DNA of 64,000 bases. Source: Chloroflexota bacterium (GTDB taxonomy: Bacteria; Chloroflexota; Anaerolineae; J036; Brachytrichaceae). The notes below the pieces were generated by a model. It worked only from the letters and a program-made list of their open reading frames with translations. It did no database searches and had not been told where the DNA came from. This document shows positions 8,316-63,485 of the stretch, piece by piece (the stretch's first letter is position 1; each line of letters starts with the position of its first letter). The position numbers and the translations under genes were made by a program. The DNA lies in NCBI GenBank assembly GCA_025354985.1, contig JANXLU010000085.1, forward strand, positions 1-64,000, in the 5' to 3' direction.

Positions 8316-10610
8316 CTAGATTTGAGATTTGTTTCGGTAGAGTTGATCACGACCCGGCAGATATTGTTTTGGCCAGGCAATTTCCGCGCCACGAAAGTTT
8401 AGCTGGGCGGCGGCGTGAAGTGTCCAATAGGGGTCAGCCAAATGCGGGCGACCAAGGGCGCAGAGATCGGCGCGGCCCGCTGCAATGATGCTATTTACAT
8501 GATCGGGCTCAAAAATCGCTCCAACCGCCATGGTCGCCATACCTATTTCGTTGCGTATGCGATCTGAAAATGGCGTCTGATACATCCGGCCATAGGTTGG
8601 CTTTGCCTTGCGTGTCGTTTGGCCGCTTGACACATCGATCAAATCACACCCTGCAGTCTTAAAGAGTCTGGCGATTTCGACCGCGTCGTCCACGGTGTTG
8701 CCGCCGGGCGCCCAGTCATGCGCCGAGATGCGGACTGACATGGGTTTATCAGCTGGCCACACCGTGCGCATGGCAGCGAATACTTCGAGCGGAAAGCGAC
8801 AACGACCAACGAGCGATCCCCCATACTCGTCGGTTCTGAAATTGGTCAGGGGGCTTAGGAATGCGCTTAGCAAGTATCCGTGGGCGCAATGCAACTCCAA
8901 CCAGTCAAAACCGCAATGGACGGCCATTCGCGTGGCCCTTACAAAATCAGCAGATACGCGCGTCATGTCTGCGACAGTCATTTCTTGCGGGATTTGGTTG
9001 GTTGGGCCATATGCGAGCGGGCTGGCAGCAAGCAACGGCCAGTTGCCGGTTTCGAGCGGTTCATTTTCGCGCTCCCAACCAACTTGGGTGCTGCCCTTTG
9101 GCCCGGCATGACCAAGCTGCAAAGCTACTTTTGCATGCGAATGATTGTGGATAAAATCGACAATTCGGCGCCAAGCCTGGGTGTGGTCATCGGTATAAAT
9201 GCCGGCGCAACCCGGCGTTATCCGGGCATCCGGGCTCGGGCAGGTCATTTCGGTAAACACGAGGCCGGCTCCGCCCATGGCGCGGCTGCCCAAATGAACG
9301 AGATAGTAGTCATCTGGAAGGCCGTCCCGGCAGGAGTACTGCGCCATGGGTGAAACCACAACGCGGTTCGGCACTTCGACGCCCCGAAGTTTGAACGGCG
9401 TGAGCATCGGCGGAATTGCCTCAGTACCGTGCCCGCTTAATTGGTCTATGTGCGATTCGATTGTCTCGACATATTCATGATCACGCATCCGCAAGTTTTC
9501 ATGAGAGACACGCTGGCTCCGCGTTAGGAGGCTATAGGCAAACTGAGGGGCATCCAAGGCAGCGTGCAAGGCAACCTGTTCAAACCACTCCGTACTGTTT
9601 CGGGCCGCATTTTGAAGTTTAGCCACCTCCACCTTGCGAATTCGTTCGTAGTCGGCAAAGGCCTGATTGACACACGAGTGAATTGAATCCAATTGTGAAT
9701 TCAGATGGCCATGTTGGGAGAACTGGCGGGCCAATTCAATTGCATCCTCTAACGCCAATTTGGTGCCTGATCCAATTGAGAAATGAGCGGTGTGAGCGGC
9801 ATCGCCCATCAGCACAATGTTCTTGTGGGTCCAGCGGTTGGTGAAAATACGGCGGAAATTTATCCAAGGATTGGCCAAGTGCTTTGCGTTATTCAGCAGC
9901 GGGTTCCCGTTTAAGTATTTGGCAAACACGCGTTCACACCAGGCAATACCTTCATCGGCCGGCAACTGATCCAAACCAGCGGCGCACCAATTTGAGTCTG
10001 TGGTTTCGACAATAAAGGTGCTGGTGTCTTGGTCAAACTGATATGCATGCGCTTGGAACCAGCCAAATTCGGTCTCTTCAAATGCAAACGTGAACGCACT
10101 AAAGCGTTGGTGGGTGCCAAGCCAGACAAATTTGCACAGTCTCGTATCTATATTTGGCTCGAATATGTCGGCATACCTGGTGCGAATTCGACTATTGGCG
10201 CCATCGCACGCAACCACGACATCGGCGTTTGCCAATATTTGCTCATCGGTTACGTCGGTTTGAAACCTGAGGGCTACATCAAGCGAGCGGCAACGATCCT
10301 GAAGTAGATTGAGCAAATGGCGGCGCCCAATGCCGCAAAAACCATGGCCGCGTGACGTGACAGTCCGGCCCTTGTAGTGAATATCAATATCGTCCCAATG
10401 GTTAAAGCCTGCCGTAATTTGTGCGTGGGACACTGGGTCTGAAACAAGCATATTGCCAAGCGTGGCGTCGGAAAACACAACACCCCAGCCAAACGTATCG
10501 TCTGGTTTGTTTCGCTCGATTACCGTAATGTCATGACGTGGATCCTGCAACTTCATCAAAATTGCAAAGTACAGACCCGCAGGGCCTCCACCGACGCACA
10601 CGATTTTCAT
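8316..10610 (-). CDS. 2-aminobenzoyl-CoA monooxygenase/reductase (FAD hydroxylase-old yellow enzyme fusion)
   Basis: Two flavin enzymes in one 764-residue chain. Residues 1 to about 380 form an FAD aromatic hydroxylase ([10 protein letters not shown] at the N-terminus, [14 protein letters not shown] near 270). Residues from about 395 to the end form an old-yellow-enzyme domain ([39 protein letters not shown]). This architecture is known for 2-aminobenzoyl-CoA monooxygenase/reductase of Azoarcus evansii and for salicylyl-CoA 5-hydroxylase. The former hydroxylates and then reduces the ring, giving a non-aromatic amino-oxo-cyclohexene CoA ester. Kynureninase and aminobenzoate ligase in the same operon favour that activity. 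It is the promoter-proximal gene, and the start ATG lies 9 bases after the predicted -10 box. Confidence 0.92.
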
Positions 10611-18916: not shown

Positions 18917-20197
18917 ATGGCTGCAACATCTGAACTTTTTGGCGTGATGACGGTGAATACGGCCCGCGAATTGTTGCTTCATGCGATTGAGCACTTCCGC
19001 CGCCATGAATACGTGCCATTGGATAAAGCCTGTGGTCGCGTGTTGGCTGCAGACATAGTTTGCAATCAGGATTTGCCGCAATTTCGTCGAAGTGTCGTGG
19101 ATGGCTATGCAGTACGGGCCAATGAAACGTATGGCGCCAGCGCGGCGCTACCCGCTTATTTTCGGGTGACGATGGAATCTGCCATGGGTCGGAACATCAC
19201 GGGTGCACTTGGTGTGGGCGAGGCTGCACGCGTGCACACCGGTAGCTCGCTGCCTGAGTCCGCAGATGCGGTGATCATGGTGGAACATACGGCCAGACTT
19301 GAACGATCTGATTCTGATCCTTGCGCCGAATTCGAAATGGAGGCATTCCGTGCGGTGGCACCCGGAGAAAACATACTTTTGGTTGGCGAGGACGTGTCAC
19401 GAGGATCGATACCATTTCGAGCCGGACAGGAATTGCGGCCCCAGGATATTGGTGGACTTGCAGCGCTCGGATTCGCCACGGTACTTGTTGCAGACAGACC
19501 GCGCATTGGCATTATTTCTTCAGGGGATGAGATCATTGCGATTGATGTTATTCCGAACCCGGGTCAGATCCGGGATGTAAATAGTCACGCCCTTGGGGCA
19601 TTGGTTCGTCAAACCGGGGGCGAGTCAATTCTTTTTGGGGTCGCGGCAGATGATCGTGAAGACTTGATTCGAAGGTTACGTCATGCCCACCAAACGTGCG
19701 ACGCCGTGGTACTATCGGCGGGCAGTTCGGTGAGTAATCGCGACTTTTCGCTGGAAGCCATTGAGAGCTTATGCGACGAGGCCGTGCTAGCGCACGGGCT
19801 AAGCATCAAACCTGGCAAGCCAACAATTGTTGCCGTGTTTGAAGGCAAACCCATATTGGGACTTCCGGGCAATCCAGTGAGCGCAATGATCGTTGCCGAA
19901 CGGTTGCTGGTGCCTTTAATCCGTCATATGCTGGGAACCGGTCACGTGGAGCCAGTAGAAGTCGTTGCAAAATTGGGAAGAGCCGTTGCTTCGGTGAATG
20001 GTCGGGAGGATTATGTGCAAGTTCAGGTGGGAATGCGCGCGGGTGAACTCTGGGCTGAACCATTATTTGGAAAGAGCAATTCGATATTTACCATGGTGCA
20101 CGCCAACGGGGTGATATGCATTCCATTGAACGCCACGGGCCTGGAGGCAGGAAGCTCGGTCATGGTTACACTACAAGGAAAATTGAAAATCAAGTGA
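18917..20197 (+). CDS. moeA: Molybdopterin molybdenumtransferase MoeA
   Basis: Inserts molybdenum into adenylylated molybdopterin. The 426-residue protein has the expected MoeA domains: the N-terminal SVVDGYAV loop (near residue 55), SSGDEI and NPGQIRDVNS near 200-220, the molybdate-site loop SAGSSVSNRDF near 270, and KPGKPT then GLPGNPVSA near 305-325. The C-terminal beta domain is complete. No Shine-Dalgarno sequence is evident. Its TGA overlaps the GTG start of the next gene. It would serve any molybdenum enzyme, including the molybdenum hydroxylase large subunit encoded at 57.8-60.1 kb. Confidence 0.95.
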   Translation: MAATSELFGVMTVNTARELLLHAIEHFRRHEYVPLDKACGRVLAADIVCNQDLPQFRRSVVDGYAVRANETYGASAALPAYFRVTMESAMGRNITGALGVGEAARVHTGSSLPESADAVIMVEHTARLERSDSDPCAEFEMEAFRAVAPGENILLVGEDVSRGSIPFRAGQELRPQDIGGLAALGFATVLVADRPRIGIISSGDEIIAIDVIPNPGQIRDVNSHALGALVRQTGGESILFGVAADDREDLIRRLRHAHQTCDAVVLSAGSSVSNRDFSLEAIESLCDEAVLAHGLSIKPGKPTIVAVFEGKPILGLPGNPVSAMIVAERLLVPLIRHMLGTGHVEPVEVVAKLGRAVASVNGREDYVQVQVGMRAGELWAEPLFGKSNSIFTMVHANGVICIPLNATGLEAGSSVMVTLQGKLKIK

Positions 20198-21402
20198 GCA
20201 GTGGATTTGATCGGCCATATGCAGGCACATGGGCCGTAGTACCGGTAAAGCCATTTGGCCAGGCTAAGAGCCGTCTTGCCAAGACACTTTCGGCCACGGC
20301 GCGAATGGAGCTGGCTGAGTCTCTTATGCGCCATACCCTGCAGGTATTGCGCACGTGCTCTGAACTGGCCAATGTCGTTGTCGTGAGTCAGGACGATCGT
20401 GTGCTGGAGATTGCCTCGGAGTTGGGTGCGGTGGCGCTCCGGGAACGATCACAGTCAAATCTTAACCGCGCAATCATGCAAGCACTTGGATACATAACAT
20501 CGGTTGGTGGAAAGGCGGGGTTGGTTTTGCCCTCGGATTTGCCGAATTTGCACCAGACCGATGTTGCAGAGTTGCTAAATTGCATGGATCACACGGGCTC
20601 AGGAATCGTGATTTGCCCAGATCGCCACGAGCAGGGAACCAATGCGTTGCTGCTCTCGCCCCCGGATTTGCTAAACGTGGCATATGGGCCACAAAGTTTT
20701 GAGGCTCACGTTCGGGCGGCTAACGCCCTTGGCATTGACGCACACGTCGTGCGGGCTCCCGGAATTGTGCTTGATCTTGATACACCCGACGACTGGAAGT
20801 TGTGGCATGCTCAGCAGCCACTTTTTGAAAGGCGGAGTGTTCGACGGTATTCAAACGCGTTGATATCTCGCACCGCGATTGAAAGGCTCGTTGCCGCGGC
20901 CACCTGGGCGCCCAGCGCACACAACCGGCAACCGTGGAGATTCGTGGTCGTCACTAAAGAGTCGTCCAAACTTGAATTGGCGCAGGCAATGGGCGACAGG
21001 TTGCGGTCAGACAGAATGACCGATGGCGATGATTCCGCAGTTATTGAAGCGGACGTGGCGAGAAGCCATGCGCGAATCAGTGGTGCTCCGGCGGTAATTG
21101 TCGCATGCATGAGTACAGCAGACATGGATCATTATTTGGATGATCGCCGGGCACGGGTTGAGGAAACAATGGCGACTCAAAGTGTGGCAATGGCTGTGCA
21201 GAATTTGTTGCTGGCCGCATACAGTGAGGGTCTTGGGGCGTGCTGGATGTGCGCACCGCTGTTTTGCCCGGATGTTGTTTCGCAGGTGTTGCGGCTGCCA
21301 TCAGATTGGCAACCGCAGGCCCTTGTCACTCTGGGTGTCCCCGCCAATGATGGCAAGCCTGCCAATCGCAAATCTATTCAGATGCTAACGCGTTGGATTT
21401 AG
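20194..21402 (+). CDS. CofC guanylyltransferase fused to FbiB-type dehydro-F420 reductase domain
   Basis: Predicted coenzyme F420 biosynthesis fusion of about 402 residues. The N-terminal 210 residues are a CofC/FbiD nucleotidyltransferase ([16 protein letters not shown], then [17 protein letters not shown] and [10 protein letters not shown]). The C-terminal 190 residues are an FMN nitroreductase fold ([38 protein letters not shown]). The latter closely matches in pattern the C-terminal domain of mycobacterial FbiB, which reduces dehydro-F420. FbiB itself pairs this domain with the glutamate ligase CofE, so the CofC pairing is unusual. I choose GTG at 20194 (GTGA overlap with moeA) over an ATG at 20116 deep inside moeA. 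An AAGGA lies about 14 bases upstream. No cofD, cofE, cofG or cofH is in the window. Confidence 0.87.
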
Positions 21403-23139: not shown

Positions 23140-23574
23140 ATGAGCGAGTCTATGTGCGCATGTGAGGAGTGCCAAGCAATGTGTCGTCGTCGACCGTGCT
23201 GGCCCACGCCATTCGATGCGGAGAAGATCATTGCCGCAGGCATGGCTGATCGCTTGATGCTGGACTGGTGGTACGACATCGCACAAGACACGACCGTATA
23301 TGTGTTAACTCCGGCCATCAGCGGGCGGGAGCGCGGGCAATCTCCGGCAATTCCAACAGGCGCATGCACGTTTCTAAACCAGAGCGGATTGTGCGATTTG
23401 CATGATCTGGGGTTGAAGCCCACAGAGGGTAGAGAGTCCCTGTGTCGTGATCGGACTGCGCCAGACCTGCACGAGCAGGTGGCCAATTCATGGAATTCCA
23501 ATACAGCGCAATCCAACGTTGAGGCGTGGGAAAAGGAAGGCTTGCGCGGTCGCCGACGGATCTTTGGTCGGTAA
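23140..23574 (+). CDS. Cys-rich YkgJ-like metal-binding protein
   Basis: 144-residue protein of unknown function. The N-terminus packs cysteines ([19 protein letters not shown]). A second cluster, [19 protein letters not shown] then SLC, resembles the YkgJ zinc/iron-chelating family, where such cysteines bind a metal or Fe-S cluster. The C-terminal 40 residues are polar and probably disordered. I start it at the ATG at 23140 because upstream codons lie in the divergent glnS promoter region. The stop is 10 bases before polX, so the two genes are probably an operon. The role is unknown. Confidence 0.72.
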
Positions 23575-23584
23575 TAATAGGCGG

Positions 23585-25351
23585 ATGCTCACCCAATTGC
23601 CAACTAATGAAGCGCTTGCCGAAATTTTTTCCGACATTGCGGTGCGCTGTGAAATAAAGGGCGACGAAAATCCATTTGCCATCCGTGCTTATAAGGCAGT
23701 CTCGGATACGATTGCAGGGTATCAGCAGCCCATTAGTAATGTTTGGCGTGAGGGCGGGCTGGAAGGTCTGACAGCAATCAAGGGCATTGGCAAGGAAATT
23801 GCAAAAAAAATAGATGAGTTAATGCGAACCGGGACCCTGGACTTTTACACACGATTGTGCGCAGCGGTTCCGGACAGTGTTGCCGCCATGCTAAAAGTGC
23901 CGGGATTTGGACCAAAACGGATCAAGCTCGTTTGGGACGAACTAGGGGTCGATTCAATTGAAGTGCTGGAAAAATATGCAAAAGAAGGGAAGCTTCGGGC
24001 ACTGCCAAAATTTGGAGCGAAATTGGAATCAAAAATTGTGGAGGGCATTTCGGCGTTAAAGCGGTTGGACACCGGCAGAAAACCAATTACGACTGTCTGG
24101 CCGGTTGCTGAGACGATTCGTGCCCGTCTGGCGGGATTGCCTCAGGTACTTAAGGTTGCCTATGCGGGCTCACTTCGACGAGGTCGAGAGACAATTGGCG
24201 ATTTGGATTTTGTCGTGGCTACGAATGCCCCGGCACCAGTTATGGCGGCATTTGTCGGTCAGGATACAGTTGAGACCGTCCTGGGCCAGGGTGAAACGAA
24301 GAGTAGCGTTCGTTTGAATACGGGTCTCCAGGTTGATTTGCGCACTGTTGCACCTGGAGTGTGGGGCACTGCGATGCAATATTTCACGGGATCGCAACAG
24401 CACAACATCCGTTTGCGTGAAATTGCGCAACGCGCCGGATTTTCCCTCAACGAATATGCACTCTCAGTAGATGGCGAGAACGTCAAAGGCGGACCAGACC
24501 TGACTTTTGACACCGAGGAAGCGCTCTATGAACGGCTTGGATTGAATTACGTTCCACCGGAGCTGCGCGAAAATCGCGGTGAGTTTGAAACGCACGTGCC
24601 GCCATTGTTGATTCGTCAAAATCAGCTAAAAGGTGACTTGCAGATGCATACTACCTGGAGCGATGGTGCAACAGATATTTTGACCATGGCACGAACCTGT
24701 GTCCGACTGGGTTATTCGTATATTGCAGTTACCGATCATACCCAGGGGCTGGGCGTAGTGAACGGACTGACACCCAAAAAGATTGCGGATCAGCGCCGTG
24801 ACATTGACGGCGTTAATGATAGGCTGCGCGGCGAAGGAATTACATTCAGAGTACTGCAGGGTGTGGAATGTGAGGTCAAATCTGACGGCTCTCTGGATAT
24901 GCCAGATGACGTACTGGCGGGGTGCGATTGGGTTCAGGCCAGTATTCACACCTCGCTGACACAGCCGCGGGATCAAATAACCACACGGGTGACTCGAGCT
25001 CTGAATAATCCATATGTAGATGTTCTTGGCCACCCGGCGGGCCGCCTTATTGGCGAACGCGAAGGTGCGGACTACGATTGGGACGCGGTGTTTTTGGCGG
25101 CCAAGTCGCGATCAGTTGCAGTTGAAATTAATGCCACGCGGATCGATCTCAGTGATGTGCTTGCCAGGCGCGCGCACGAGCTTGGATGTATGTTTACGAT
25201 TAGTACTGATGCACACTCGCCGGAGATGTTGCATAACATGCACTATGGCGTAATCACGGCACGCCGAGCGTGGGTGACCAGCGACGTTGTACTCAACACA
25301 TTGCCGCTCCAGAATTTGTTGGATTGGATTAAAAATCGCAGGCGCCGTTGA
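23585..25351 (+). CDS. polX: DNA polymerase X with PHP exonuclease domain (PolX)
   Basis: Base-excision-repair polymerase of 588 residues. Residues 1-90 form the helix-hairpin-helix 8-kDa-like domain ([12 protein letters not shown]), and a second HhH follows ([17 protein letters not shown]). The palm carries GDLDFVV (Asp206, Asp208) and VDLR (Asp251), the three metal-binding acids of family X. The C-terminal PHP domain begins at [10 protein letters not shown] (His near 355), continues with TDHT, and ends with STDAHSPEM, so its metal ligands for 3'-5' exonuclease activity look intact. I use the ATG at 23585, since the upstream extension lies in the preceding gene. It converges on an MFS gene with 8 bases between stops. 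Confidence 0.95.
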
Positions 25352-30245: not shown

Positions 30246-32615
30246 TTAGCCGGCAGCACCAGGCGCAATCTCATCCATTAGTGCCTTCCAGTCTTGATCA
30301 ATCCCGTCGGTCGTAACGCCGTAGACGATTCGAGGCCCGGTTGGGGATTGAAAAGCCACGTCGAAGCGTTGTTTGCCCGCTCGTATGGAACTGCTTAGGA
30401 TTGCGCGCTGCCCGTTCTTCCAGTTTATTTTGTCCACAGCGTACGATTTTCTATTGTGCATGGTGATGGCATAGTGCCATAGATCGCGGGCGCTTTTGAA
30501 GGTTACGTTTCGCGTAATGCCACCGTTTCTTGTATCTCTCAAGGCGAAGTACACGGTTCCTCCGCGTTCTTCCATACCTACCACTTCCACGCCGCTTTTT
30601 GGCAGGGCGTCATGCGGTCCTGGATCGAAGATTAGGGTTTCTGCGGGTTTGGGTGCTGGTTCAGAGACACGAGGCATATTCATCCGCGTGACTTGAGGTA
30701 AATCGCTGCCTTGGGAGCCGATTGACTCCCGAGTCAGTTGATCAGGCAATTGTGCTGTCGCCGGGGCAGAGCCACTTTGCTCACCTCGGTGGGGGGGTAA
30801 CGGTCTGCGAACTTGAGCCGAGCTCGGCCGATCATTGGTGTCGGCCTTGGAAGTTTCAGCTCGTTGCACTAGTGGCGCTTCCTGCGACCGGCTGTCCTGT
30901 GGAATGGGCTGCATCGCCTGCACCTGACTATTGATCACATCCGGGTTCGACTTGGCGGACCCAATGGACAACGTGCGTGCTCTGGTTGGAGCAGGTTGAG
31001 ATCGATTACTGTCCGTTCGTGTGCCAGCTGCCTGGCTTTCACGCCTAGGTCCATAGTTGCGACCGTCCCTTTGGTCGCGGGAGGATGGTCGCGTTTCGCG
31101 CGGCTCTGAGACCCGTGCCACTGTCACCGCAGAGAGTTGCCGCACTTCAACCGGGGTCGTCTTGCGGGCGAGTGCGACGATCTCATCTCGTGTAGCGATG
31201 CGTGTCTGTATCCCGTCCCGTATCAGAAATTCAGTGCCCTGCAAAGTATGTGGCGCCTTGTTGCTGTTGGGGATAACTATTCGGATCAGATCCACCCCGT
31301 TTTCGGGAACAACCGTCAGCTCGGCGTGAAGAAGAGGCGTGATAGCGGACGCTATGGCATCACTTATTGCCGCAGCGACCTGATGGGCTTTTTTGACACC
31401 AACAGTCTTTTTCTTCGAATTTGCGTCGCATCCGAACCAGATTGTTCCGCCCGATGCATTTGCAAACGCCGTGGCATCCCGAAGAATTGGTGCAAACTGT
31501 CCCTCGGGTTTCTTCGCAAGCACCGCATGAAATGCCTGGGTGGCAGATTCACCTGCCTCACGACGAGGTTGAGCGATCTCCGGCATAACGTCCAGAATAT
31601 CAAATACGGGCCTTACCCGATGGAAGTCTGGTGACACAAAAAGAGCCCTGAGTTCCGCAAAAGTTGGTGCCGCAAGTTGAACCTCTGTTGTTCGTTCGCC
31701 GATCCCCAATCTCTTCGGGTTACTTTTGAGTGCGGAGTCGCGATGGGAATCGCTGCCTTGTATGGCATGCATTTTACGGGGGTATTCCTGGCGAACACCC
31801 GTCACCAGCCATGAGGATGATCTCCGTCCGCGCTCGAGGTCGGTCCATTCGATCGCAATCAAGTTCGGATCCTGGGTAAAGGCAATTCGGGTTTGCCCGC
31901 CAAAATCCATTTCGCGCATGCTAACGCCATGTGTGCTGTTCGCATGCGCTGCAATTGCCATTCCGCCCGCCTCGGCAATCGCCTTGTAAGCAGTTAATAC
32001 ATCTGCCGTCGCGCCGGCCTCCGTGAGTCCGTGATCCAAAACGTTGCCAGGGACGTTCAATTTAACGAGAACCGATTCAACGTCCCGTAGAGCCTTTTCA
32101 GGCGGGAATATTCCGAGAATATGAAAACCAAAAGTTGCCGTGAATTCAAAACCCGGCATCACGGTAATTTTCTTCAGTAGCCGCCTAAATTCGTTGAGCC
32201 TGCCTAGTTCGTCGGGTTTGATGCGCTCTAGTCGTTCAAGAAGGGTGAGGTCATCAATTTCCCGTTGCATCTTGCGGAACCCATTAACCGTATTGTGATC
32301 GGTAAACGCGATGATGCTCAATCCGCGTCGTTCAGCCATCTGCAATATGCCGAGATAACCCAGTTCCGGCGTCTCATAATCGTGAGAAGCAGGCGTATGC
32401 ATGTGCAAGTCCATGCGGTACCACGTGCCGACGCCAAGTCCAGCGGGTTGGGGTGTGTTCGTTACCGGTGCAACAGACAATGCCGCCGCTACCTTTGGTG
32501 GTGCCGGTGCTCGACGGATCTTGGTTTGTGTGACCTTTGGAGCTATCTTCGGTGTGGAAGCGGGGATTTTCTTTGCCAGCTTCGCAGTTGTTCTATTCTG
32601 TTTTTTTTCAGCCAT
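30246..32615 (-). CDS. PHP phosphoesterase fused to an AlbA_2 (Schlafen-like) domain
   Basis: 789-residue multidomain protein of unknown role. A basic, Ala/Pro-rich N-terminus (1-60) leads to a PHP domain (about 66-345) with YRMDLHMHTPASHD, FTDHNT, the FGFHILGIF His, AAHANSTHG and GSDSHRDS, so the metal ligands look complete. Residues 357-485 match the AlbA_2/Schlafen AAA_4 pattern (DATAFANASGGTIWFG, VIPNSNKAPHTL, FLIRDGIQTRIAT). A disordered Arg/Gln/Pro-rich stretch of about 160 residues follows, then a distinct C-terminal domain of about 130 residues that I do not recognise. PHP domains are phosphoesterases or nucleases, and AlbA_2 domains bind nucleic acid. A nucleic-acid-processing enzyme is the simplest guess. 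I use the ATG at 32615. Confidence 0.75.
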   Translation of the reverse strand: MAEKKQNRTTAKLAKKIPASTPKIAPKVTQTKIRRAPAPPKVAAALSVAPVTNTPQPAGLGVGTWYRMDLHMHTPASHDYETPELGYLGILQMAERRGLSIIAFTDHNTVNGFRKMQREIDDLTLLERLERIKPDELGRLNEFRRLLKKITVMPGFEFTATFGFHILGIFPPEKALRDVESVLVKLNVPGNVLDHGLTEAGATADVLTAYKAIAEAGGMAIAAHANSTHGVSMREMDFGGQTRIAFTQDPNLIAIEWTDLERGRRSSSWLVTGVRQEYPRKMHAIQGSDSHRDSALKSNPKRLGIGERTTEVQLAAPTFAELRALFVSPDFHRVRPVFDILDVMPEIAQPRREAGESATQAFHAVLAKKPEGQFAPILRDATAFANASGGTIWFGCDANSKKKTVGVKKAHQVAAAISDAIASAITPLLHAELTVVPENGVDLIRIVIPNSNKAPHTLQGTEFLIRDGIQTRIATRDEIVALARKTTPVEVRQLSAVTVARVSEPRETRPSSRDQRDGRNYGPRRESQAAGTRTDSNRSQPAPTRARTLSIGSAKSNPDVINSQVQAMQPIPQDSRSQEAPLVQRAETSKADTNDRPSSAQVRRPLPPHRGEQSGSAPATAQLPDQLTRESIGSQGSDLPQVTRMNMPRVSEPAPKPAETLIFDPGPHDALPKSGVEVVGMEERGGTVYFALRDTRNGGITRNVTFKSARDLWHYAITMHNRKSYAVDKINWKNGQRAILSSSIRAGKQRFDVAFQSPTGPRIVYGVTTDGIDQDWKALMDEIAPGAAG

Positions 32616-62270: not shown

Positions 62271-63485
62271 CTAAGATTTTCGAAGAATTGAAAATCCCAC
62301 GAGTAGGGCACCGCTTGCCAGTGCGATATGCGCAAGATTGAACACCGGCATGGCGCCAATTTGAATAAAGTTTAATACGCCACCAGCCACGAGGCGGTCC
62401 AATATGTTTGAAAGTAGCGCACCTAGCGCCACCGAGAGCCCGATTTTTTGGATTCGGGCTGCCGTGGTGGGCCCGGCTGAACTTGCAACTGCGAGAATTA
62501 TCAGAAGGCTCGCAAGTGTGGCGGCGAGCAATTCAACCAATACCGGCAAAACCGTGCCGAATACGGTGGAAGGCGCCGCCACATCCAGAACACCAATTCG
62601 AAGCAACCCACCCAAGAGTTGCCAAGGCGCCAGGCCGCGTATGATTATTTTTGACAACTGGTCTACAAAGAGGACGCCAAGGCCGATTGAAACCATGGGC
62701 CCGATAGCCAAAACTTTCGACAGCGCCCAATCACCATTGGCACTTCTCGTTGCCTGAGTTCTGGAGGATAAGCTCGCCCCTGTGAAGCGCGTTGTGCCTT
62801 GACCGGGCAGCTTATCAGTTGCAATGGTCATCCATTTTCCAAGCTCCACTTTGGCGCTCCATGATTCGGACAGGTTAATGGGTGTGAGCTTGGCGCCAAG
62901 CATCTTATCGTCGCCGATGCAGACCAGCCTGACGTCGTCTGCTTGCAAAAAATAGCTTGCGGCTTCAAACAGTTCAGCCGCGCCTACCGAGCTCACTTTG
63001 TCCAAATGATCCAGGGCGATTATGAGCAGGCGTCCGACGGCCCCGACCACATTTTGGGCCAACTTTGGAAACGAGTTGCGGAAGCGGTTTGCAAAATTCC
63101 CAATAAGAATTTCAGATGCCTCGGGGGATTCCAATTTTGCTGCTTGAACGGCGGTAAGCAACTCTCCCCGAAGAGATGCAATGACGCCTTGATCACGCGG
63201 AACCGCGTTTTCACTCAACTTGTCCAAAACAACGCTCAGCAGGTGTTGCCAGGGCAGGAGGTATCCTGGCAACTCAGTTGCGTCGATCAGAACTACCATG
63301 CAGGTTCGTCCACCTGGTGTGGAAACGGTGGAGGACGATAAATCCTTGATCAGGGTTGTCTTTCCACTGCCCCTCGGACCAAACAACCCAAGCCAGGGCT
63401 TGCTCGCCGGGGATTCGAGATCACACGCCAGCAAAAGCTCGTTGCGCGCATTCTGTTGGTCTGTCGTTAGCCGTGAAGGTGACAT
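62271..63485 (-). CDS. KAP-like P-loop NTPase fused to an LspA-like (signal peptidase II) domain
   Basis: 404-residue fusion in the position where lspA usually follows ileS. Residues 1-220 are a P-loop NTPase with Walker A GPRGSGKT (36-43), Walker B LLIIALDHLDK (153-163, DH rather than DE) and FLQADDVRLVCIGDD (180-193), resembling KAP-family NTPases. Residues 258-402 have four hydrophobic segments in the LspA pattern: VDQLSK (274-279), SNILDRL (359-365), and PVFNLAHIALASG (380-392). Signal peptidase II needs two Asp. The first is present (Asp363), but the FNxAD Asp is His386 here, and the conserved NxGAAF segment is unrecognisable. It may be a pseudo-peptidase or a divergent enzyme. It starts 8 bases after ileS. 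Confidence 0.78.
   Translation of the reverse strand: MSPSRLTTDQQNARNELLLACDLESPASKPWLGLFGPRGSGKTTLIKDLSSSTVSTPGGRTCMVVLIDATELPGYLLPWQHLLSVVLDKLSENAVPRDQGVIASLRGELLTAVQAAKLESPEASEILIGNFANRFRNSFPKLAQNVVGAVGRLLIIALDHLDKVSSVGAAELFEAASYFLQADDVRLVCIGDDKMLGAKLTPINLSESWSAKVELGKWMTIATDKLPGQGTTRFTGASLSSRTQATRSANGDWALSKVLAIGPMVSIGLGVLFVDQLSKIIIRGLAPWQLLGGLLRIGVLDVAAPSTVFGTVLPVLVELLAATLASLLIILAVASSAGPTTAARIQKIGLSVALGALLSNILDRLVAGGVLNFIQIGAMPVFNLAHIALASGALLVGFSILRKS

Follow-up and report, generated by a model that had tools for sequence, protein, structure and literature searches.

The window, a stretch of 64,000 nucleotides of Chloroflexota DNA, carries a gene for a 789-aa protein that joins a PHP domain, an SLFN_AlbA_2 domain, a disordered linker and a folded C-terminal domain (CTD). 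Because EndoQ, RNase AM and Ppl, relatives of its PHP domain, are nucleases, the protein is probably a nuclease. Our proposal as a whole, to which we give a probability of about 0.45, is a PHP nuclease of the Ppl/EndoQ/RNase AM branch that carries accessory modules and would have a stress role together with Lon and Hsp20. The order of a Ppl-type PHP domain, AlbA_2 and this new CTD was not found described in the literature searched. A PHP module known from a phage-defence nuclease also occurs here in a lineage-wide chromosomal gene. Searches for PHP with AlbA_2, and for Chloroflexota with Lon protease and operon, returned no article; as judged by title, nothing about the 789-aa protein was found under Chloroflexi, PHP and Schlafen, or among the matches listed for Schlafen-like and AlbA_2 proteins.

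Architecture and PHP metal site

The reading frame has 789 codons, and a TTG start further upstream would extend the product to 803 aa (Table 1). The earlier note had placed the gene correctly, in coordinates and in length, leaving the strand unstated; its reading of the protein as PHP, AlbA_2, linker and an unassigned C-terminal module was upheld by Pfam, by the predicted structure and by homologues. In the AlphaFold2 model (43 homologues, mean pLDDT 75.3), the PHP, AlbA_2 and C-terminal parts were confident and the middle was disordered. Most of residues 504-660 were predicted with a pLDDT below 50, which bears out the long linker of that note, and linker length ranged from 14 to 275 residues across the 43 aligned proteins (stretch aligned to residues 487-668). 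The proposed search for the same domain order showed that many genomes carry such homologues, with about 40-63% identity across the regions matched; chance is therefore excluded and, at the level of sequence comparison, the gene and its domain order are confirmed as real.

Table 1. Positions in the window of the PHP-AlbA_2 gene and of the parts of its product
Feature	Position	Strand	Description
Whole gene	30246..32615	-	789 aa, ATG start at 32615, stop codon 30246-30248; homologues found
Basic disordered N-terminal tail	32427..32615	-	Residues 1-63, net charge +11
PHP domain	31590..32426	-	Residues 64-342; metal site H71 H73 D79 H107 E157 H165 H224 D289 H291
SLFN_AlbA_2 domain	31146..31589	-	Residues 343-490; without Schlafen catalytic acids
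Disordered linker	30606..31145	-	Residues 491-670
C-terminal domain (CTD)	30261..30605	-	Residues 671-785; three strands-helix-three strands-helix; no convincing Pfam/PDB match

Ligand counts and the gene tree were based on 66 rows, each a locus that matched PHP as well as AlbA_2, excluding the contig-end pieces L077 and L078. Eight metal-site residues (H71, H73, H107, E157, H165, H224, D289 and H291) are identical in 65 of these 66 rows. The ninth position, D79, is D in 58 rows, C in 6 and E in 1. The ligands are thus conserved among homologues, in agreement with the apparently active PHP metal site of the earlier note. The one exception is L125:7889-10105 (genome G198). Together with L155 (G430:C267), from a second species of the same genus in family f86, it has lost nearly all PHP metal-site residues and kept the AlbA_2 domain and two CTDs, which implies that catalysis is not always needed.

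Pfam PF02811 (PHP) matched residues 69-124 of the 789-aa protein with 19.3 bits, below the gathering cut-off of 26.4, and one homologue (L113) cleared this cut-off with 27.7 bits; the gathering score is a cut-off and no defining residue, and the ligands and the fold of the PHP superfamily are both present. The family profile aligned with residues 5-213 of Escherichia coli Ppl (E 3.5e-20, one target), and every ligand was matched, including those in the HTPASHDY and GSDAH motifs. The structure prediction proposed as a check gave a fold that is clearly PHP, with EndoQ, TM0559 and RNase AM among its nearest relatives. EndoQ was the best match (Z 20.3, 230 residues, 3.2 A), ahead of TM0559 (17.4), PsfC (17.0), a two-domain PHP protein (16.5), RNase AM (15.8) and the AMP-bound PHP enzyme of C. 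violaceum (2yb1, 14.1). YcdX (8.7-8.8), histidinol phosphatases and PHP-fold tyrosine phosphatases (7.8-8.5) were weaker. Among NCBIfam models, Ppl_antiphage (71.2 bits vs a cut-off of 1000) and TrlF (84.6 vs 350) matched the PHP part only (residues 64-330), as did Spaf_1101 (residues 85-316), far under its cut-off.

EndoQ is an endonuclease acting on damaged DNA, and its conserved residues in the accessible part of the source are D6 L7 H8 H10, E76 and H84, H139, E167 and SDAH (PMC4357722). Their counterparts occur here in the same order (D69 L70 H71 H73, E157 and H165, H224, E256, SD[AS]H), and the E-to-H spacing of eight is common to both proteins. RNase AM binds three manganese ions and is inactivated by D20A, as stated in the available text of PMC9410882. 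By fold, these two enzymes rank with the proteins closest to the PHP part, but the accessible descriptions give EndoQ a zinc-finger C-terminal part and RNase AM an insertion domain, and mention AlbA_2 for neither. Ppl, described in the excerpt available as an ssDNA 3'-5' exonuclease (PMC12904381), shares its metal site with the 789-aa protein over the aligned region. However, Ppl has an NTPase, whereas the PHP domain is followed here by AlbA_2 (residues 343-490), the linker and the CTD, and no NTPase or ATPase domain was found by Pfam behind it; Ppl is also plasmid-borne, whereas this gene is chromosomal and its tree tracks families. TrlF belongs to a temperature-restricting locus of Photorhabdus, in which, in the part of the source available, trlF itself had no demonstrated importance.

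AlbA_2 and C-terminal domains

Pfam SLFN_AlbA_2 (PF04326) matched residues 367-473 with 45.1 bits, above the gathering cut-off of 25.3. The predicted fold was as expected from the AlbA_2 assignment of the earlier note, with DIP2311 (Z 12.3), a RecG-related protein (12.0), Schlafens (about 10) and SAMD9 (9.6) as matches. The domain thus has the same fold as the AlbA_2 domains of Schlafen, of SAMD9 and of bacterial RecG-related proteins, and it carries their N..GG signature, N386, G389 and G390 being invariant in 66/66 rows. Schlafen-type cleavage, according to the accessible text of PMC11221667, requires two Glu and one Asp in the AlbA_2 domain. In contrast with Schlafens, these acids are not kept in this family: where the first Glu would be (E356 in the 789-aa protein), 7 of the 66 rows have E and 2 have D, catalytic E211 of SLFN14 (A in the E211A structures) aligns with A361, a position that is acidic in 3, at most 4, rows, and the Asp region has mixed residues. 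A second, Schlafen-type ribonuclease was therefore rejected, and with the catalytic acids missing AlbA_2, to judge by its residues, more likely serves in binding or in the formation of oligomers. The median net charge is -2 for AlbA_2 and +1 for the CTD; such near-neutral values do not favour strong nucleic-acid binding.

The C-terminal module, which the earlier note had called conserved-looking, has 9 invariant columns in 37 sequences. Folded alone, it was predicted with a pLDDT of 90.6 and a pTM of 0.82, as strand-strand-strand-helix-strand-strand-strand-helix. The best Pfam match among the 37 members was tRNA_anti_2 (E 1.3e-4; 5 members matched, with E up to 5), and two members scanned again reached 16.0 and 15.2 bits against a cut-off of 27. 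An OB fold, PadR and DUF4757 were not adopted as assignments, the scores listed being under the cut-offs; for the OB fold, the structure searches gave no clear match. The best PDB sequence match had an E of 0.84 only, and Foldseek with the CTD model gave no match reaching 0.001. The VIA-align list gave polo-box (Z 5.3, top), chromodomains (4.6-4.7) and PURA (4.0), Z scores too weak to use. A duplicated strand-strand-strand-helix unit was likewise not supported by profile comparison of the two halves (E 0.15). We consider the CTD, on its predicted structure, a separate folded domain with no assigned family, and do not claim that its fold is novel.

The CTD occurs behind PHP-AlbA_2, and it is doubled or accompanied by a further partial copy in proteins of families f50, f60, f86 and f89; a quick tree of few columns gives a single origin for the second copy in proteins with two CTDs. 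It was also found at the end of a 509-aa NYN protein (L076:8288-9817 of genome G042; NYN Pfam match 4.6e-32), in which NYN replaces PHP-AlbA_2; no PHP-AlbA_2 match was found in that genome. Among the matches listed from 298 genomes of the class, this was the only case of NYN and CTD in one frame. In another member of the family of G042, G458, the protein has its usual form, PHP-AlbA_2-CTD, in a 618-aa frame. The single NYN fusion hints, weakly, that the CTD may serve nucleases; as a domain with no assigned family, it is one whose binding partner can be sought.

Gene neighbourhood and descent

The neighbourhoods covered were those of the genomes with a strong match in the set of 60, except G012 and the PHP contig of G030, and, from the phylum surveys, 20 loci together with the G430 contig (3.5 kb) and a stretch of G458. 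Outside the family of the window (f1) and families f50, f60, f86 and f89, 23 of 36 loci have lon upstream of the PHP gene, on the same strand; among the 13 loci lacking it, 4 include less than 3 kb of upstream sequence. The gap between the two genes is shorter than 500 bases in 20 of the 23 lon-bearing loci, and some overlap. A gene for a receiver domain stands between them in some loci, and an overlap of 4 bases with the PHP gene was seen for this receiver gene in L054 and for lon in L068. An hsp20 gene is present near the PHP gene in 14 loci, and where the gene order was mapped it lies upstream of lon. These neighbours were identified by Pfam on one example of each. In our proposal, the PHP gene would often be co-transcribed with lon. 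Thanks to its repeated position, a connection between the cleavage of nucleic acids and protein quality control is open to direct testing. A gene judged by eye to be MogA/MoaB-like was also observed near the PHP gene in 6 loci, downstream of it in L109, L115, L068 and others.

No lon was found nearby in any of the 23 f1 loci or the 6 loci of f50, f60, f86 and f89; the genome of the window has Lon_C matches on other contigs. In the window, the neighbours are genes for ornithine carbamoyltransferase, CdaA, a DNA glycosylase-like protein, a glycosyltransferase, Der and Cmk, none of which falls in a neighbour family shared by at least 4 loci. As a shared signal, a CIRCE-like heat-shock repeat was rejected: it matched 4 of 156 loci, three of these matches being at one position within the NYN gene, and the only lon-bearing locus concerned (L059) has it away from lon.

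The surveys of distribution covered genomes within Chloroflexota. A strong match (E 1e-70 or better) was found in 47 of 60 genomes, that of the window included; five had weak single-domain matches and eight had none. Of 400 genomes drawn evenly across the phylum, the PHP-AlbA_2 profile matched 62 (cut-off 1e-20) and the CTD profile 63 (cut-off 0.001), with 60 genomes in both lists. Only the CTD was matched in G042 (the NYN protein) and in G198 and G430 (decayed PHP), and only the PHP profile, weakly, in G065 and G413. Nearly every carrier has one copy of the gene. In the gene tree, a quick tree with no bootstrap, the 24 rows of f1 form one side of a branch with an SH-aLRT of 100; the tree follows families, which fits vertical inheritance in Chloroflexota as far as sequences can tell. 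Two versions were observed in one genome only, G046, of which the second (L075:2026-4326) is divergent, has two CTDs and groups with f50, f60, f86 and f89; this suggests that it may have been acquired by transfer.

Proposed function and alternatives

That the protein may be a phosphoesterase acting on nucleic acids or nucleotides, as the earlier note suggested, is supported by the conserved PHP ligands and by the PHP nuclease relatives. In our proposal, the PHP domain would be a metal-dependent hydrolase of the phosphodiester bonds of single-stranded nucleic acid, whereas AlbA_2 might bind nucleic acid or form oligomers, and the CTD on its flexible tether could select the substrate or a partner. 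The enzyme may then serve nucleic-acid turnover or repair during protein-damaging or heat stress, alongside Lon and Hsp20. Gene order is the sole ground from which this stress role is deduced, and the loci of f1, to which the window belongs, lack it. In a narrower form, which we consider very unlikely, a PHP nuclease from an hsp20-lon operon would be a partner of Lon, its AlbA_2 domain and CTD sensing damaged or stalled nucleic acid or ribonucleoprotein; if true, nucleic-acid cleavage and Lon proteolysis would be coupled in heat or other stress. What speaks most strongly against a purely catalytic role is the decay of PHP in one genus, together with the near-neutral charge of the accessory modules. 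It is doubtful that the protein mainly binds or regulates, with AlbA_2 and the CTD holding nucleic acid or a partner, maybe for delivery to Lon, and PHP activity being secondary. The loss of the PHP site in G198 and G430, where AlbA_2 and CTDs stay, the use of the CTD on an unrelated NYN protein and the linkage with lon are all compatible with it, but eight ligands kept in 65 of 66 rows argue that catalysis, or metal binding at the least, is under selection.

Hydrolysis of a small molecule, such as 3',5'-bisphosphonucleotides or a cyclic dinucleotide like c-di-AMP, is unlikely. RNase AM and the AMP-bound 2yb1 are structural neighbours and the diadenylate cyclase gene cdaA is a convergent neighbour in the window; however, cdaA is in no neighbour family of 4 or more loci, so that its adjacency is local, and two large accessory modules would be unusual for a small-molecule enzyme. 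A c-di-AMP role was for this reason, the neighbour not being conserved, rejected as the main reading. We regard as quite improbable an anti-phage nuclease, that is, a relative of Ppl in which AlbA_2 and the CTD replace the NTPase as sensor, even though Ppl and TrlF are among the curated models closest to the PHP domain, the Ppl alignment retains all ligands, and AlbA_2 domains also occur, according to the accessible parts of the sources, in the antiviral Schlafen and SAMD9 proteins. The gene is present in 47 of the 60 relatives examined, in single copy in nearly all carriers, f1 is one clade with full support, the neighbours are metabolic and proteostasis genes, and Pfam finds no NTPase domain. 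PADLOC gave generic matches only on the ten window neighbours to which it was applied, and phage records gave no match. Plasmid records, in the 30 of 347 matches listed, covered the PHP part only, and nothing but two remote PHP matches (24% and 21% identity) came from viral contigs. With neighbours covered for part of the loci, the gene did not show the patchy spread, horizontal movement and defence neighbourhoods of a mobile defence system. The defence role envisaged in the earlier note is thus not supported, given single copies, a tree that follows families and lon and hsp20 as recurrent neighbours; the gene looks more like one for a house-keeping or stress enzyme than like a mobile phage-defence gene.

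Other open reading frames of the window were observed in passing. A second PHP-bearing protein, PolX (NCBIfam, above cut-off), is encoded at 23447-25351 on the plus strand, about 5 kb from the PHP-AlbA_2 gene. By eye, two frames appear to be fusions, one of a CofC-type guanylyltransferase with a nitroreductase-like domain (20116-21402, plus strand) and one of a flavin monooxygenase with an old-yellow-enzyme-type domain (8316-10610, minus strand), and a third appears to have a P-loop NTPase-like first half and a lipoprotein signal peptidase-like second half (62271-63485, minus strand).
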